32,544 nucleotides of DNA from Puniceibacterium sp. (GTDB lineage: Bacteria > Pseudomonadota > Alphaproteobacteria > Rhodobacterales > Rhodobacteraceae): assembly GCA_024636635.1 (NCBI GenBank), contig JAGXGV010000140.1:1-32544 (forward strand), written 5' to 3'. Every line of letters begins with the position of its first letter. Within the stretch, counting starts at the first letter, position 1. The position numbers and the translations under genes are program-made. Positions 14,486 to 20,843 of the stretch are shown one piece after another. A model generated the notes under the pieces. That model did no database searches. It saw only the letters and a program-made list of their open reading frames with translations, and was not told where the DNA came from.

Positions 14486-14505
14486 GGGTCTGGCGGGATT
14501 GCGTT

Positions 14506-15426
14506 TCAGGGATCGCCGGGGATGTCCTGGTGCAGGTGGCGTTCGCCACGGGCCCGGGCGAGCGCGATCTGTTTCTGGCGTTCGCGGAACCGGGCCTTGT
14601 CGTTCGGGCTGGTTTGGCCGGAGCAGAGGTGGCAGGCAACGCCTTCCTCGTATTCGGGCCGCGCACGGTCGCCGGGCAGGATCGGGCGGCGGCAGGCATG
14701 GCAGAGATCGTGCGGACCTTCGGTCAGGCCGTGGCCGACCGAGACACGTCCGTCGAAGACGAAGCAGTCACCGTGCCATCTGCTTTGTGCCTCGGGAACC
14801 TCTTCGAGATACTTCAGGATGCCACCCTTGAGGTGGTAGACCTCTTCCACGCCCTGGCCCAGCAGGTAGTTGGTGGATTTTTCGCAGCGGATGCCGCCAG
14901 TGCAGAACATGGCGATCCGCTTGTTGTGAAAACGGTCCCTGTTGGCGTCCCACCAGGCAGGGAAGTCGCGAAAGCTGGCGGTCTGCGGGTCCACCGCGCC
15001 GTCAAAGCTGCCGATGGCGACCTCGTAATCGTTGCGGGTGTCGATGACCGCCACATCCGGGGCCGAGATCAGCGCGTTCCAGTCGGAGGGATCGACATAG
15101 TGGCCGGTGCGGGCGCGCGGATCGACGTCCGGCTGGCCCATGGTCACGATTTCCTTTTTCAGCCGTACTTTCATGCGGACAAAGGGACGCCGGGTGGCCG
15201 TAGAGCGTTTCCAGTCCAGTTCGGCGCAACCGGGCAGGGCGCGGATCATATCGAGGATGGTGGCGATCCCGGCGTCCGGTCCGGCGATGGTTCCGTTGAT
15301 GCCTTCGGGCGCGAGCAACAGCGTTCCGGTCACGCCGTTGCGCAGGCAGGCGTCGTGCAGCGCGACCCGGTAGGCATCGGGGTCGGGCAGGCGGGTGAAA
15401 TGGTAGAGCGCGGCAACGGTGAACAT
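14506..15426 (-). CDS. trhO: Rhodanese-type tRNA uridine 5-oxyacetic acid pathway hydroxylase TrhO
   Basis: 306-residue YceA/TrhO protein. TrhO hydroxylates uridine 34 of certain tRNAs using oxygen. An N-terminal acylphosphatase-like half (AALYHFTRLPD, LLLAPEGINGTIAG) precedes a rhodanese domain from about residue 120, with VIDTRNDYEVAIGSFDGA and the active loop MFCTGGIRCEKS (Cys175, conserved Cys181). The C-terminus has two CxxC pairs (CHAC and CHLC), a probable zinc ribbon. The ATG at 15426 gives the family N-terminus; the frame stays open far upstream, but that part overlaps pncA and does not resemble the family. Length is a little shorter than E. coli TrhO (350). It is divergent from pncA across 112 bases. 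Confidence 0.92.
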   Translation of the reverse strand: MFTVAALYHFTRLPDPDAYRVALHDACLRNGVTGTLLLAPEGINGTIAGPDAGIATILDMIRALPGCAELDWKRSTATRRPFVRMKVRLKKEIVTMGQPDVDPRARTGHYVDPSDWNALISAPDVAVIDTRNDYEVAIGSFDGAVDPQTASFRDFPAWWDANRDRFHNKRIAMFCTGGIRCEKSTNYLLGQGVEEVYHLKGGILKYLEEVPEAQSRWHGDCFVFDGRVSVGHGLTEGPHDLCHACRRPILPGDRARPEYEEGVACHLCSGQTSPNDKARFRERQKQIALARARGERHLHQDIPGDP

Positions 15427-15538
15427 GGCGGCGATGTACGCCCGACGCGCCAACAGATCAAGAGAGCCGGTTCCCGCGATCTTGAGGCTGCGACGCTGGC
15501 GTCCTAGTCTGCACGGGACATATACCGGGAGTTTTGCC

Positions 15539-16132
15539 ATGTCCGCCCTGATCGTGATCGATGTCCAGAACGATTTCTGCCCCGGCGGCGCCTTGGCCGT
15601 ACCCGAGGGAGACGCGGTCGTAGCGCCCATCAACGCCATGATGTCCGAGTTTGATTCGGTGATCCTGACACAGGACTGGCACCCGGCCGGGCATTCGTCC
15701 TTTGCCAGCGAGCATCCGGGCAAGGCGCAGATGGCGACGGTAGAGATGCGCTATGGGACGCAGGTGCTCTGGCCCGACCACTGCATCCAGGGCACCCATG
15801 GCGCCGCTTTTCACCCCGGCCTGAACCTCGATCCAGCCGATCTGATCCTGCGCAAGGGGTACAGGCGCAGCATCGACAGCTATTCCGCCTTTTTCGAGAA
15901 CGACCATGCGACGCCAACCGGGCTTGACGGTTATCTGCGCACGCGCGGGATCGGAACACTGACTCTCGTCGGGCTTGCGTACGATTTCTGCGTCTTCTAT
16001 TCGGCGCTGGACGCGGCACGGCTGGGTTATGCAGTCACGGTCGTTGGCGGCGCCACCCGGGGAATCGACCTTGACGGTTCGGTCGGTGCGGCGGGCAATG
16101 CCATGCAGGCGGCCGGTGTCATGCTGCGCTGA
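15539..16132 (+). CDS. pncA: Nicotinamidase
   Basis: 197-residue isochorismatase-fold amidohydrolase that converts nicotinamide to nicotinate and ammonia, the first step of the Preiss-Handler salvage route. The catalytic triad is visible: Asp8 (IDVQNDF), Lys106 (LRKGY) and Cys151 (YDFCV). Metal ligands are probably Asp46, His48 and His81 (DWHPAGH, PDHC), and the cis-peptide region VVGGATRGID is intact. The ATG at 15539 gives the family N-terminus and has GGGAG six bases upstream. A possible promoter is TTGAGG (15482-15487) with TAGTCT (15505-15510), 17 bases apart. pncB, the next enzyme, lies beyond one intervening histidine kinase gene. Confidence 0.95.
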   Translation: MSALIVIDVQNDFCPGGALAVPEGDAVVAPINAMMSEFDSVILTQDWHPAGHSSFASEHPGKAQMATVEMRYGTQVLWPDHCIQGTHGAAFHPGLNLDPADLILRKGYRRSIDSYSAFFENDHATPTGLDGYLRTRGIGTLTLVGLAYDFCVFYSALDAARLGYAVTVVGGATRGIDLDGSVGAAGNAMQAAGVMLR

Positions 16133-16212
16133 GCGGGGCGTTCGGGATACGATCCTTCTTGCCGCTTTGTTAACTGGACTGGCGCTACACCTGACGAAAC
16201 AGTTTGGTGGAC

Positions 16213-18570
16213 ATGCCTTTTATGGTGCAGACCCTTTCCAGTTCCGAGGCTCAGTTGGCTGCTTTCGAGCTGCGCCAGACTCCGGCAGGATTGCTTGCGC
16301 GCTATGCCCGCGGTCGCATCGGATATTTCTGGGCACGCCAGTCGCTGACGCTGATCGGGGCGCTGTCGCTGGCGCTGATGGAGACCGCCGTGGTGGGGTT
16401 GGTCGCGGCAGGGTTGGCCTTGCTGGGTGAAGGCGTCGATTGCGCGACGCTGAGAATGGTGCCCCGCTGGCAGCGGCAGGGGCACAGCCCTGGCCGCATC
16501 CGGGCGATCACCACCCTGTCCGCCGGTTTTCAGGCTCTGACCATCGCGGGCTGCATCTTTCTGACCCTTGGAAATGGGGTGGTGGGCGAAGCGGACTTCT
16601 TTGCCTTCGCCTTTCTGACCGGCGCCGCCATGAACGCGGGCGTTGTCCTGCCCTATCATCCGTCGGCGGCCAAAGCGCGGCTGGCGATCTACATGGCGAC
16701 GGGCACAGGGTATCTGGGGGCGGATGTGGCGCTGGCGGGTCGGCTTGAAACATGGCATGGCTACGAGATCATGGCCGTGCTGCTGGTGGCTTACAATGTG
16801 CGGATCTTCTTGCAGATGGTCGTCGGTTCCCAGCGCAACCATGTGCGGTCGCGCCGGGAACTGCTGCTTGGGGCGCGGGCGTTGGCGCAGAGCAATCAGG
16901 ACCTGCACGACACTCAGCGCGAGGCGCGACAGCTTGATCTTGTCGCGAGGCATGCCAACGACAGCGTGGTCATGACGGATAAAATTGGCCGCATCGTCTG
17001 GGTCAACGAGGCATTCGAGAAGCTGACAGGCAACAATCTTACAGAGGCTGAGGGACAGGAAATTGCGGCACTGTTGAACGGTCCCGAAACCAGTCGGAAT
17101 ACCGTTGACGCCATTGCTCGTGCCGTTCGCGAAGGGCATGCGCTCCGGTCGGAAATCCTGAACTATACCAAGGACGGACGGAGGATCTGGGTGGACACGA
17201 ACCTTGTTCCGATCTGTGACGATGAGGGACGCACGGAAATGGCCATCGCAATCGAGCGGGACATCACCTCTGCCCGGGCCCATGCCGAGGAACTGACACG
17301 GGCCACATTACGCGCCGAGGACGGCGCGCGGGCCAAGGCGGCGTTTCTGGTCACCATGAGTCATGAGATCCGCACGCCGATGAATGGCATTGTCGGCATG
17401 GCCGACCTTCTGTCGCAAACACCGCTTGGGCCGCAGCAGCGCGAATATGTCGGCGCGATCAACTCTTCGGGCGAGGCGCTGCTGAGGATCATCAACGACA
17501 TTCTGGACTATTCCAAGCTGGACGCGGGCAAGATGGCGACAGTGGAAGAACCGTTCAACCTTGGCCGTTGCATCCGGATGTCCGCGGATCTGCTGCGGGG
17601 AACCGCCCACGAAAAAGGTCTTTATCTTGATATCTGCCACGACGTCGCGATGCCCGAAACCGTGTTGGGTGACGAGGGTCGCGTGCGTCAGGTGCTGCTG
17701 AACCTTCTGGGCAATGCGATCAAGTTCACCGAAGTCGGCGGCGTGACCCTGCGCGTGTCAGTCGAGCGCAGGGGACAGGCGCATGCCGTCTGCATCCAGG
17801 TAAAAGACACGGGTATCGGTGTTACCGCAGCCCAGGAGGACCGTATCTTCGACCAGTTCGAACAGGCGGATGTTGCCACCACGCGAAAATTCGGCGGGAC
17901 GGGGCTGGGCCTGACCATATCGCGACAACTAGCCCGGCGCATGGGCGGCGATCTGGTGCTGGCCCCCCGGGAAGGGCCGGGTTCGGTCTTTGAGTTCACT
18001 TTTTGCGCGGGCGTCAAGCAGGACGCGCCGCAGACGCAGCCGACAGAGGGCGCGCCCGCCCTCATGCCGGATCTGACGGGTGCACGAATCCTTGTCGCCG
18101 AGGACAACCGCACCAACAGCCTGCTGATCGCCCGGTATCTGTCGGATCTGGATGTGACGCTTTGGTTTGCGGGCAATGGAAACGAGGCGCTGGACATGGT
18201 GCGTCAGCACGCGCCCGACATCGTGCTGATGGACGTGTCGATGCCGGAACTGGACGGCATTGCGGCGACGGTCCAGATCCGGAACCGCGACGGGCCGCAG
18301 CCGCATATCATTGCGCTGACTGCCAATGTCTTTGTCTCGGATCGGTCGGCCTGCCTGGCCGCCGGGATGAACGATTTCCTGTCGAAACCTATCGGCAAGG
18401 CCGATCTACTGGCGGCGCTCATGCGTGGCCGGGGCGCGCACAAATCGCTTGGAACGTCCCCGCCGCTTCGCGTATCACGAGAAGACAAAGCAAGTGAGGC
18501 ACCGAATTGGACATCGCAACCCGCGTCTGGAACCACAAGTGGAAGATCGACCCGATTGTCCGGTCGCTGA
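16213..18570 (+). CDS. Membrane-bound PAS hybrid sensor histidine kinase with receiver domain
   Basis: About 785 residues. The N-terminal part (about 40-205) has five hydrophobic segments without a large periplasmic domain. A linker and a PAS domain (about 237-355; NDSVVMTDKIGRIVWVNEAF) follow. HisKA has the H-box MSHEIRTPMNGIVGMADLL (His384). The ATPase domain shows NLLGNAIKFT (from 497), DTGIGV and GGTGLGLTISRQLA. The C-terminal receiver begins ILVAEDNRTN, with phospho-acceptor Asp674 in LMDVSMPELDG. No Hpt domain or response regulator is seen nearby, so the output is unknown. Starts at 16204 (TTG), 16207 (GTG) and 16222 (ATG) are also possible; no strong ribosome site. It lies between pncA and pncB and overlaps pncB by 64 bases. 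Confidence 0.93.
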   Translation: MPFMVQTLSSSEAQLAAFELRQTPAGLLARYARGRIGYFWARQSLTLIGALSLALMETAVVGLVAAGLALLGEGVDCATLRMVPRWQRQGHSPGRIRAITTLSAGFQALTIAGCIFLTLGNGVVGEADFFAFAFLTGAAMNAGVVLPYHPSAAKARLAIYMATGTGYLGADVALAGRLETWHGYEIMAVLLVAYNVRIFLQMVVGSQRNHVRSRRELLLGARALAQSNQDLHDTQREARQLDLVARHANDSVVMTDKIGRIVWVNEAFEKLTGNNLTEAEGQEIAALLNGPETSRNTVDAIARAVREGHALRSEILNYTKDGRRIWVDTNLVPICDDEGRTEMAIAIERDITSARAHAEELTRATLRAEDGARAKAAFLVTMSHEIRTPMNGIVGMADLLSQTPLGPQQREYVGAINSSGEALLRIINDILDYSKLDAGKMATVEEPFNLGRCIRMSADLLRGTAHEKGLYLDICHDVAMPETVLGDEGRVRQVLLNLLGNAIKFTEVGGVTLRVSVERRGQAHAVCIQVKDTGIGVTAAQEDRIFDQFEQADVATTRKFGGTGLGLTISRQLARRMGGDLVLAPREGPGSVFEFTFCAGVKQDAPQTQPTEGAPALMPDLTGARILVAEDNRTNSLLIARYLSDLDVTLWFAGNGNEALDMVRQHAPDIVLMDVSMPELDGIAATVQIRNRDGPQPHIIALTANVFVSDRSACLAAGMNDFLSKPIGKADLLAALMRGRGAHKSLGTSPPLRVSREDKASEAPNWTSQPASGTTSGRSTRLSGR
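18494..18499 (+). promoter_or_regulatory. Ribosome binding site deciding the TTG start of pncB
   Basis: GTGAGG lies seven bases before the TTG at 18507, inside the 3' end of the kinase gene. No in-frame ATG exists near this point, and the residues after TTG match the usual PncB N-terminus (DIATRVWNHKWKIDPIVRSL), so the TTG is the start. Confidence 0.7.
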
Positions 18571-19796
18571 TCGACAACGACTTTTACAAGCTTCTGATGT
18601 GTCAGTCGGTCTTTCGAAACAAGCGTGATACGCAGGTCCGTTTCAGCCTTATCAACCGGTCGACCCATATCCCGCTGGCGGATCTTATCGACGAAGGCGA
18701 ACTGCGCGAACAGCTTGACCACATCCGGTCGCTGTCCCTGCGGCGGGGGGAGTCGACATGGATGCGAGGCAATACATTCTATGGCAAGCGCCAGATGTTC
18801 CGCCCGGATTTCATGGACTGGTTCGAAAATCTGCGGCTGCCGCCCTATCACCTGGAACGTGTCGGTGATCAGTACGAACTGACGTTCGAGGGCAGTTGGC
18901 CCGAGGTGATGCTGTGGGAAATCCCGGCGCTTGCAGTGCTGATGGAATTGCGCGGACGGGCGGTGCTGAACACCATGGGCCGGTTCGAGCTTCAGGTGCT
19001 TTATGCCCGGGCCATGACGAAGCTTTGGGAAAAGGTCGAACACCTGCGCACGGTGCCCGATTTGCGGATCGCCGATTTTGGCACCCGGCGGCGGCATTCC
19101 TTTCTCTGGCAGGACTGGTGCGTGCAGGCGATGCAGGAGGGACTGGGAGAGAGCTTCACCGGGACATCGAATTGCCTTATCGCCAAGAACCGCGATCTTC
19201 AGGCGATCGGCACCAATGCCCACGAACTGCCCATGGTCTATGCCGCGCTTGCGCCCGATGACGCCGCGCTGGCCAGCGCGCCCTATGACGTGCTGGCCGA
19301 CTGGCACGAGGAACACGACGGCAACCTGCGGATCATCCTGCCCGACACCTACGGCACCAACGGGTTCCTGCGCAACGCGCCTGACTGGCTGGCCGGCTGG
19401 ACCGGCATCCGCATCGACAGCGGCGATCCCGCCACAGGTGCCGAAACCGCGATCCGCTGGTGGCAGGAGCGTGGCGAGGATCCGCGTACAAAGCTGGTGA
19501 TCTTTTCCGACGGGTTGGACGAAGCCAAGATTGTCGAACTGCACAAGCAGTTTCTGGGCCGGGTCCGGGTAAGCTTTGGCTGGGGCACGCTTCTGACCAA
19601 CGATTTCCGCGGCCTCACGGCGGATGACGGCCTTGCTCCGTTCAGCGTGGTGTGTAAGGCGGTGTCGGCCAACGGGCGGCCCACGGTCAAACTGTCGGAC
19701 AACCCGAACAAGGCGATGGGCCCCCAGGATCAGATCGACCGTTATAAGCGCGTGTTCGACGTGGGCGTGCAGAAACCGTTCGAAGTGGTGGTCTGA
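18507..19796 (+). CDS. pncB: Nicotinate phosphoribosyltransferase
   Basis: 429-residue enzyme that joins nicotinate and PRPP, with ATP hydrolysis, to nicotinate mononucleotide, the step after PncA. Diagnostic stretches are DNDFYKLLMCQSVF (23-36), ADFGTRRRHSF (189-199), GTSNCLIAK (219-227), the region of the phosphorylated histidine GTNAHELP (His239 by alignment from memory with Salmonella PncB), and IRIDSGDPATGAE with the phosphoribosyl-binding loop. It starts with TTG inside the kinase gene and is probably translated in coupling with it. Its stop is only three bases from that of the convergent lacI gene. Confidence 0.95.
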   Translation: MDIATRVWNHKWKIDPIVRSLIDNDFYKLLMCQSVFRNKRDTQVRFSLINRSTHIPLADLIDEGELREQLDHIRSLSLRRGESTWMRGNTFYGKRQMFRPDFMDWFENLRLPPYHLERVGDQYELTFEGSWPEVMLWEIPALAVLMELRGRAVLNTMGRFELQVLYARAMTKLWEKVEHLRTVPDLRIADFGTRRRHSFLWQDWCVQAMQEGLGESFTGTSNCLIAKNRDLQAIGTNAHELPMVYAALAPDDAALASAPYDVLADWHEEHDGNLRIILPDTYGTNGFLRNAPDWLAGWTGIRIDSGDPATGAETAIRWWQERGEDPRTKLVIFSDGLDEAKIVELHKQFLGRVRVSFGWGTLLTNDFRGLTADDGLAPFSVVCKAVSANGRPTVKLSDNPNKAMGPQDQIDRYKRVFDVGVQKPFEVVV

Positions 19797-19799
19797 CCC

Positions 19800-20843
19800 T
19801 CAGTCCCGCAGATGCGGTCCGTCCACTGGCCCGATGATCCGTTGCAGCGTTTCGGGTGGTTCGCCGTCAATGCGGCGCAGAAGCATCTCGCCCATCGCCT
19901 GGCCGGTCTTCTCCACATCCTCAAAGATCGACCGGAACTTGGGCCGCATCAGGTCGAACACCGGCGAGGCCTGCTTGATAAGCATGTCCACATGGTCACC
20001 CGCGACAAGGCCAACGTCGTCGATCGCGGCCAGCGCCGCGAGGGCCATGACCTCGCCGACGCAAACGATCCCATCAGGCGGCGCGTCCGAACGCAGGATG
20101 TCGGCCAGCTTTTGCGCAAGCTCGCCGGGGGGGGTGTCGATGGTCAGGTCCTCGGGGATGATATGTTCGATCCCGGCCTCGCGCACTTCGGACAAGAAGC
20201 CGAACCGCAGGTGCTGGGAAAAGGTGAACTGCGCCTGTGGCAGGACGATCATCAGCCGCTTGCGCCCGGCCTTGTGCAGCCAGCGGACCGCCTGGCGGGC
20301 AAAGGATTCGTTGTCGAAATCAACATAGGCGTGTGGGGTCGTGAATTCAGTGCGCCCGTGGCTGACAAAGGGGAAATCCTGTTCAAGCAACAGTCGCACG
20401 CGAAGGTCGAAACATTCGGTGCGCGACAGGATGATGCCGTCGGCAAGGTTGTTGCGCAGGATGTTCTGGATCACCGACACCCGGTCCGAATCGATGAAAT
20501 CCGGAGTGATCGTGACCGAATAGCCGGTGCCCCGCAGCGCCGCCGTTATCCCGTTCAGCAGAACATGGGTAAAACCGAGGTATTCGTGCCCGGGGTTGAT
20601 CAGAAGCGAGATCACCTTGGTGCGTCCGGTTCGCAGCCTCTGCGCCGCACGGTCCGGTACATATCCCAGCGATTTCGCGGCCCTGGACACCGTGTCCCGT
20701 GTCTTCTGTGCAATCTTGGGATCATTCGCCAGGGCGCGCGAGACCGTCGTGACTGCAAATCCCGTCGCCTGCGCGACGGTCTTCAGCGTCGGCTTGCCGG
20801 TCGATCCGTTCGAAGGCGGTTCGTTGTTCACGCTTGGGACCAT
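19800..20843 (-). CDS. LacI-family transcriptional regulator of the sugar ABC operon
   Basis: 347-residue repressor. The helix-turn-helix (TLKTVAQATGFAVTTVSRAL, about 19-38) and hinge region (RAAKSLGYVPDRAAQRLRTG) come first, then a periplasmic-binding-protein-like sensor domain from about residue 77 (VISLLINPGH) with typical ADGIILSRT and FDNESFARQAVRWL. A roughly 18-residue polar tail precedes the DNA-binding domain. The start at ATG 20843 is uncertain, since ACGGA abuts it; a GTG at 20831 is an alternative. It is divergent from gtsA across 210 bases carrying two operator-like sites, so it most likely represses the transporter and itself until a sugar is bound. The effector is inferred to be the transported sugar. 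Confidence 0.9.
   Translation of the reverse strand: MVPSVNNEPPSNGSTGKPTLKTVAQATGFAVTTVSRALANDPKIAQKTRDTVSRAAKSLGYVPDRAAQRLRTGRTKVISLLINPGHEYLGFTHVLLNGITAALRGTGYSVTITPDFIDSDRVSVIQNILRNNLADGIILSRTECFDLRVRLLLEQDFPFVSHGRTEFTTPHAYVDFDNESFARQAVRWLHKAGRKRLMIVLPQAQFTFSQHLRFGFLSEVREAGIEHIIPEDLTIDTPPGELAQKLADILRSDAPPDGIVCVGEVMALAALAAIDDVGLVAGDHVDMLIKQASPVFDLMRPKFRSIFEDVEKTGQAMGEMLLRRIDGEPPETLQRIIGPVDGPHLRD

Follow-up and report, generated by a model that had tools for sequence, protein, structure and literature searches.

A hybrid sensor histidine kinase gene between pncA and pncB in Rhodobacterales

The three genes and the domains of the kinase

The DNA analysed here, referred to as the window, is a stretch of 32,544 nucleotides from Puniceibacterium sp. 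(contig JAGXGV010000140.1 of assembly GCA_024636635.1); the genome to which it belongs (G000) is a draft of 174 contigs and 79% complete. Three of its genes lie head to tail on the plus strand. The first, pncA (positions 15,539–16,132), encodes nicotinamidase: the product matches the Pfam family Isochorismatase (2e-26) and reaches 210 bits with NF008623, of which the cut-off is 174. The second (16,204–18,570) encodes an orphan sensor histidine kinase. The third, pncB (18,507–19,796), starts with TTG and encodes nicotinate phosphoribosyltransferase, with 486 bits for NF003704 (cut-off 379) and 289 bits for TIGR01514 (cut-off 270). PncA and PncB are thus both identified by scores above NCBIfam equivalog or subfamily cut-offs. 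The original prediction had placed a membrane-bound hybrid kinase between these two genes, all running in one direction, with the last two overlapping by 64 bases; the common direction and the overlap (18,507–18,570) were both found as described.

The open frame of the kinase begins with TTG at 16,204; ATG at 16,213 or 16,222 seems to be the more likely start. A TrhO gene flanks the three genes on the left in the divergent direction, and a LacI-type regulator gene on the right is convergent. The remaining genes of the window with a Pfam match belong chiefly to sugar and amino-acid metabolism and transport. No terminator-like site was found in 15,400–20,000, and no NAD or other riboswitch was matched by Rfam at E 0.5 within 14,500–20,800.

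PAS, HisKA, HATPase_c and Response_reg all exceed their Pfam cut-offs in the kinase. The PAS domain (16,957–17,268; PAS_9, 7e-17) is followed by HisKA (17,335–17,529; 4e-21), the catalytic domain HATPase_c (17,668–18,003; 2e-25) and a receiver domain (18,088–18,420; 1e-25). The phospho-acceptor of HisKA is His384, counted from ATG 16,213 (codon 17,362–17,364), and that of the receiver is Asp674 (codon 18,232–18,234). Both residues are invariant in an alignment of 14 orthologues, and the His motif and the receiver Asp are retained in 40 of the 40 kinase loci described below. By these domains and residues, the protein is a hybrid sensor histidine kinase, of which the catalysis is predicted.

The membrane location is likewise a prediction. 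In an AlphaFold2 model of low confidence (pLDDT 62), the N-terminal domain (16,321–16,824) comprises six helices without a periplasmic domain, and only part of the predicted membrane segments exceeds the hydropathy threshold. The window member of this domain had no Pfam match at E 5, the best of 14 members being at E 0.013, and comparison with solved structures gave no relative (best E 0.44).

No Hpt domain was matched by Pfam in the kinase itself, and neither a receiver nor an Hpt domain was matched among the 37 other open reading frames of the window, some of which are spurious. A classical pair of the kinase with an adjacent response regulator was therefore rejected within the window, which bears out the earlier statement that no cognate regulator is nearby. 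Identity with a named hybrid kinase was rejected as well: the protein is below the cut-offs of the best 25 of the 154 NCBIfam families matched, TorS, BarA, ArcB and LuxQ among them.

Occurrence and descent of the kinase

The survey covered 292 genomes of the order, and pncB was matched in 289. The three genomes without a match (G008, G142 and G272, all of genus g9) do have nadA. The kinase gene is directly upstream of pncB in 39 of the 292 genomes, once in each, and these genomes represent 22 of 113 genera. In 36 of them pncA is just before the kinase; it was not found there in G216, G159 and G035. Donghicola mangrovi, which may also be among the 292 genomes, has the kinase between pncA and pncB too, giving 40 kinase loci, 37 with pncA upstream. 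In none of the 40 is the kinase reversed or split from pncB by another gene. The association is conserved beyond close relatives. Because the triple recurs in 22 genera, the restriction to very close relatives that had been named as speaking against the original prediction does not hold. No paper on the pncA-kinase-pncB triple was found in the literature.

These counts are based on profile A1, which was made from the membrane domain of 14 orthologues, 13 of them from the same 292 genomes, so that kinases with other membrane domains are missed. The profile gave 50 strong matches (E < 1e-25): 39 adjoin pncB, as seen on reading all 39 loci, and 11 are elsewhere, as eight extra copies in genus g2 and three in g9. 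Eight of these 11 loci were read and show no pncB; the other three and the only pncB match of the genome are on separate contigs. Full-length paralogues away from pncB (L131–L133, L135, L147–L149 and L154) number at most two extra copies per genome. A further 51 matches were weaker (E 4e-17 to 5e-4) and none was counted as the kinase; the five examined are short kinases. Class-wide, two strong matches were obtained among 289 genomes, both within the window's family (G000 and G001), and three weak ones outside it, one nearly full-length (E 7e-7) and two partial (2e-4 and 3e-4). A kinase search of genome contigs gave 19 loci, of which one, that of Donghicola, holds an orthologue at the pncAB locus; the other 18 match mainly via the PAS domain and have no PncA or PncB. 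Matches to the kinase core in L054 and L070 were discarded, being pncB DNA read in another frame.

The neighbourhood of pncB was compared in 80 loci from 61 of the 113 genera, selected among the matches listed, with lower-scoring kinase-less pncB loci left out. Twelve of them, from 11 genera, have the kinase immediately before pncB; any other cluster of upstream reading frames in the kinase-less loci reaches at most five loci and four genera. In the 68 kinase-less loci, pncA is less than 250 nt from pncB in 25, 0.57–4 kb off in 24 and not found upstream in 19, two of which are at a contig end. The slot occupied by the kinase holds assorted genes in kinase-less genomes, including those for a BCCT transporter, a GAF protein and an FMN reductase. 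A LacI match, as on the right side of the window, occurs within 1.2 kb after pncB in none of the 80 loci. The pncA-kinase-pncB order exceeds chance.

The kinase diverges faster than the enzymes. Across all loci read, with or without the kinase, identity to the window protein is 79–90% for PncB and 61–75% for PncA. For the kinase loci the corresponding values, from tblastn pieces, are 27–47% for the sensor part and 43–56% for the core; with one locus per genus, distances of the kinase core are about 4.5 times those of PncB (median). On a PncB tree of 108 loci, kinase presence requires 12 changes, as compared with 32.6 when labels are shuffled, and well-supported branches force at least four changes. 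The kinase and PncB trees have 15 of 37 splits in common (label-shuffled mean 0.3, maximum 3), and their distances are correlated (Mantel r 0.55, a value reached in 0 of 9999 permutations). When one locus per genus is taken (23 loci), r is 0.21, with 419 of 9999 permutations as high, and 2 of 20 splits are common, a number that shuffles exceed with up to 3. Descent of the kinase inside genera is clear; since the trees agree weakly at one locus per genus, both loss and transfer are possible between genera. On the kinase tree, the g2 copies that are not next to pncB are placed among the pncB-adjacent kinases. Genus g28 includes both states: G159 carries the kinase, G066 and G039 are without it, and the element before pncB (see below) is the same in all three. 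The kinase is dispensable, as it is present in only 39 of 292 genomes.

Two loci show unusual reading frames. In L118 (G256), an in-frame stop is located in the membrane domain, marking a decaying copy. In L121 (G035), where pncA was not found, the frame is open for about 500 codons further upstream, to a total of 1272 codons. A fusion protein was considered for G035 and rejected: judged by eye, the upstream part looks like a stop-free read-through, not a domain.

The junction before pncB

Only the window, G158 and G159, a group on the kinase tree with SH-aLRT 98, have the 64-nt overlap of the kinase tail with the start of pncB, making 3 of the 40 loci. Elsewhere a gap of 10–153 nt separates the kinase stop from pncB, measuring 60–75 nt in 22 of these 37 loci. 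A conserved coupling device is thus ruled out by its occurrence in three loci only. In our view the overlap is a derived state that arose when the kinase frame ran on through the spacer; the residues added to the kinase are encoded by pncB DNA read in another frame.

A promoter-like element, TTGGAA-N18-TATCAC, is located at 18,449–18,478 on the plus strand, within the 3' end of the kinase gene, and its TATCA is 34 nt before the pncB start. Alignment of the spacers gave the pattern TTG-N16..21-TATCA, in which TATCA is usually 33–37 nt before pncB and 41–44 nt in g2. It precedes pncB in 22 of 40 kinase loci and in 3 of 68 kinase-less ones, with a first-order resampled mean of 0.1 in each group; it should be mentioned that the pattern was picked after viewing the spacers and that the loci are related. 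TATCA is missing in 14 of the 40 kinase loci, Donghicola included. Before pncA, the same pattern was found in 0 of 37 kinase loci and 0 of 49 kinase-less ones. The stricter TTG-N19..21-TATCA occurs 37 times in 778,583 nt of loci, the window excluded; in 24 of these the TTG is in the 36-nt zone from −75 to −40 before pncB, and 21 of the 24 are in kinase loci. In the window, with both strands scanned, the stricter pattern has a single match, at 18,449. A promoter scan requiring 9 of 12 matches did not list the element, which has 8 of 12 by our own count.

The placement of the element is far from random, and its sequence resembles a promoter of the sigma-70 type. pncB therefore probably has its own promoter, so that the kinase would be coupled at most to pncA, and a single operon of all three genes seems doubtful. 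Three kinase-less loci (L053, L056 and L065), in which pncA ends 73–107 nt before pncB, keep the element, which therefore does not need the kinase.

Possible signal input, phosphorelay and role of the kinase

The original prediction had named redox among the possible signals, and a flavin in the PAS domain, as in MmoS, NifL or Aer, would be one basis for it. The closest relative of the PAS domain in the PDB is indeed MmoS (3ewk; E 5e-31 by profile, 9e-19 with the sequence alone). The tryptophan of helix F is described as the primary FAD determinant in FAD-PAS domains (PMC10468136), and a His and an Arg are named as FAD contacts for MmoS and Aer (PMC9668731). None of 38 orthologues keeps the pocket Arg or either Trp of MmoS in or after helix F, and none of 37 keeps the pocket His. 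Three of 38 retain the contact Thr; the contact Asn, retained in 30 of 38, is in favour of a flavin. The combination of a helix F Trp with His and/or Asn, by which an FAD redox PAS of the NifL/MmoS/Aer type was to be recognised, is thus absent, and this assignment was rejected. Furthermore, the PAS domain is missing in 2 of 40 loci, L034 (G158) and L123 (G228), where the membrane domain, kinase core and receiver are intact. As 38 of 38 orthologues are without the MmoS tryptophans and two more without the whole domain, redox sensing is not supported, and we consider flavin-based sensing very improbable. The Cys that binds flavin in LOV domains is reported to correspond to the position of the FAD His (PMC10468136). 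A LOV photoreceptor was also rejected: in 0 of 38 orthologues is a Cys found within two columns of that position, where an alignment gap makes the register approximate.

Since the PAS domain was lost in two orthologues and is without recognised FAD residues, we infer that the signal input is located in the membrane domain. Two polar residues of this domain, D62 and Q93 in the numbering of alignment A1, are nearly invariant.

An Hpt match was obtained in 39 of 39 kinase-bearing genomes, each having at least one in a short open frame of 108–161 codons; this count covers kinase-bearing genomes only and shows merely that a partner could exist. In the genome of the window, the sole Hpt gene detected (116 codons) adjoins a gene for a receiver-SpoIIE phosphatase on contig 117 (L158, 4816–6581). 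This pair is an obvious candidate for the relay. One ChpT was also found in this genome, and further Hpt genes may exist because about a fifth of it is missing. RbaY is a receiver-phosphatase, which the product of the receiver-SpoIIE gene of the window genome may resemble. A partner-switching system with RbaY has been predicted in Rhodobacter capsulatus (PMC3999984).

With regard to NAD synthesis, nadA was found in 86 of 292 genomes. It was not found in 206, including that of the window, so that salvage may be their source of NAD. A niacin requirement has been reported for Dinoroseobacter shibae, whose alga is assumed to supply the vitamin (PMC4069834). A tie between the kinase and loss of de novo synthesis was rejected because nadA is present in 12 of 39 kinase-bearing genomes and 74 of 253 others (Fisher p 0.85).

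Taken together, we tentatively regard the protein as an orphan phosphorelay kinase resident between pncA and pncB and plausibly tied to the supply of niacin or NAD, with a probability of roughly 0.4. The fixed place and orientation, the congruence of the trees, the His and Asp retained in 40 of 40 loci, the promoter-like element before pncB, the lack of a terminator-like site, the Hpt matches in 39 of 39 genomes and the 206 of 292 genomes in which nadA was not found were counted for it. Counted against it were the lack of correlation with nadA, the weak congruence at the genus level, the 11 of 50 strong matches away from pncB, the stop in G256, the two orthologues without PAS and the presence in only 39 of 292 genomes. 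In this mechanism, the kinase would be made from the pncA promoter, as the short gap between the two genes and the lack of a terminator-like site suggest, and its amount would track the expression of nicotinamidase. The cue, related to the supply of niacin or NAD, would be received by the membrane domain and not by the expendable PAS domain. After phosphorylation of His384, the phosphate would pass to Asp674, and a free Hpt protein with its gene in another part of the genome might then relay it to a distant response regulator. The target of the relay need not be pncA or pncB.

It is quite possible, in our estimation, that the kinase has no role in NAD salvage, has settled in a gene pair that is often conserved and is inherited along with it, responding to an unrelated cue. 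Its dispensability and fast divergence, the 12 changes on the PncB tree, the lack of correlation with nadA, the promoter-like element that pncB has for itself, the paralogues located elsewhere and the assorted genes taken up by the slot all fit such a passenger. It is less easily reconciled with the recurrence of the kinase in 12 loci and 11 genera among the 80, as compared with at most five loci and four genera for any other upstream frame, nor with an arrangement never reversed or interrupted in 40 loci. A dedicated pyridine sensor is improbable. In this case nicotinamide, nicotinate or a ligand derived from NAD would bind to the membrane domain or the PAS domain, with feedback on pncA and pncB through the relay. 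The fixed genomic context is in line with it, D62 and Q93 could form a site, and kinase loci have the element before pncB far more often than kinase-less ones; however, L053, L056 and L065 keep the element without a kinase, and no regulator was found nearby.

Returning to the orphan phosphorelay kinase tied to niacin or NAD supply, if this is true, the protein links a vitamin that many of these bacteria probably obtain externally to a phosphorelay. To our knowledge, no membrane kinase for NAD supply is known. A bolder form, which we hold to be rather unlikely, is a new family of membrane kinases for vitamin B3 and NAD supply, in which the membrane domain would read the pyridine or energy state that results from salvage and signal through free Hpt to a global regulator; most of the bacteria concerned are without nadA and may rely on niacin from outside. 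Genus g28 offers a natural experiment: L104 has the kinase, L053 and L056 do not, and all have the same pncB element, with pncA not found in the stretch of L104.

Among known systems, membrane hybrid kinases of the TorS, BarA and ArcB type likewise have HisKA, HATPase_c and receiver in one chain. TorS (352 bits) and BarA (343 bits) gave the best NCBIfam scores, but these are about half of the curated cut-offs (676 and 890) or less, and the window kinase is without an Hpt domain of its own. The FAD-PAS sensors MmoS, NifL and Aer include the closest solved PAS by sequence; they differ in the Trp, His and Arg positions, which are not kept here, and the PAS domain of the kinase is dispensable. The kinase-less pncA-pncB neighbourhood of Rhodobacterales has the identical gene order and, in the three loci named above, the promoter-like element too, whereas pncA is directly before pncB in 25 of 68 loci, separated in 24 and not found upstream in 19. 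Short histidine kinases of about 470–510 residues, encoded near an autoinducer synthase gene, were met among the 51 weaker A1 matches. In four of the five loci examined (L151, L152, L155 and L160), they lie within about 4 kb of a luxI-like autoinducer synthase gene and genes resembling response regulators; in L151 an Hpt gene is also near. PAS and receiver are absent in the two that were scanned, but the membrane domain resembles that of the kinase, matching profile A1 weakly (E 3e-15 to 4e-17 in the five).
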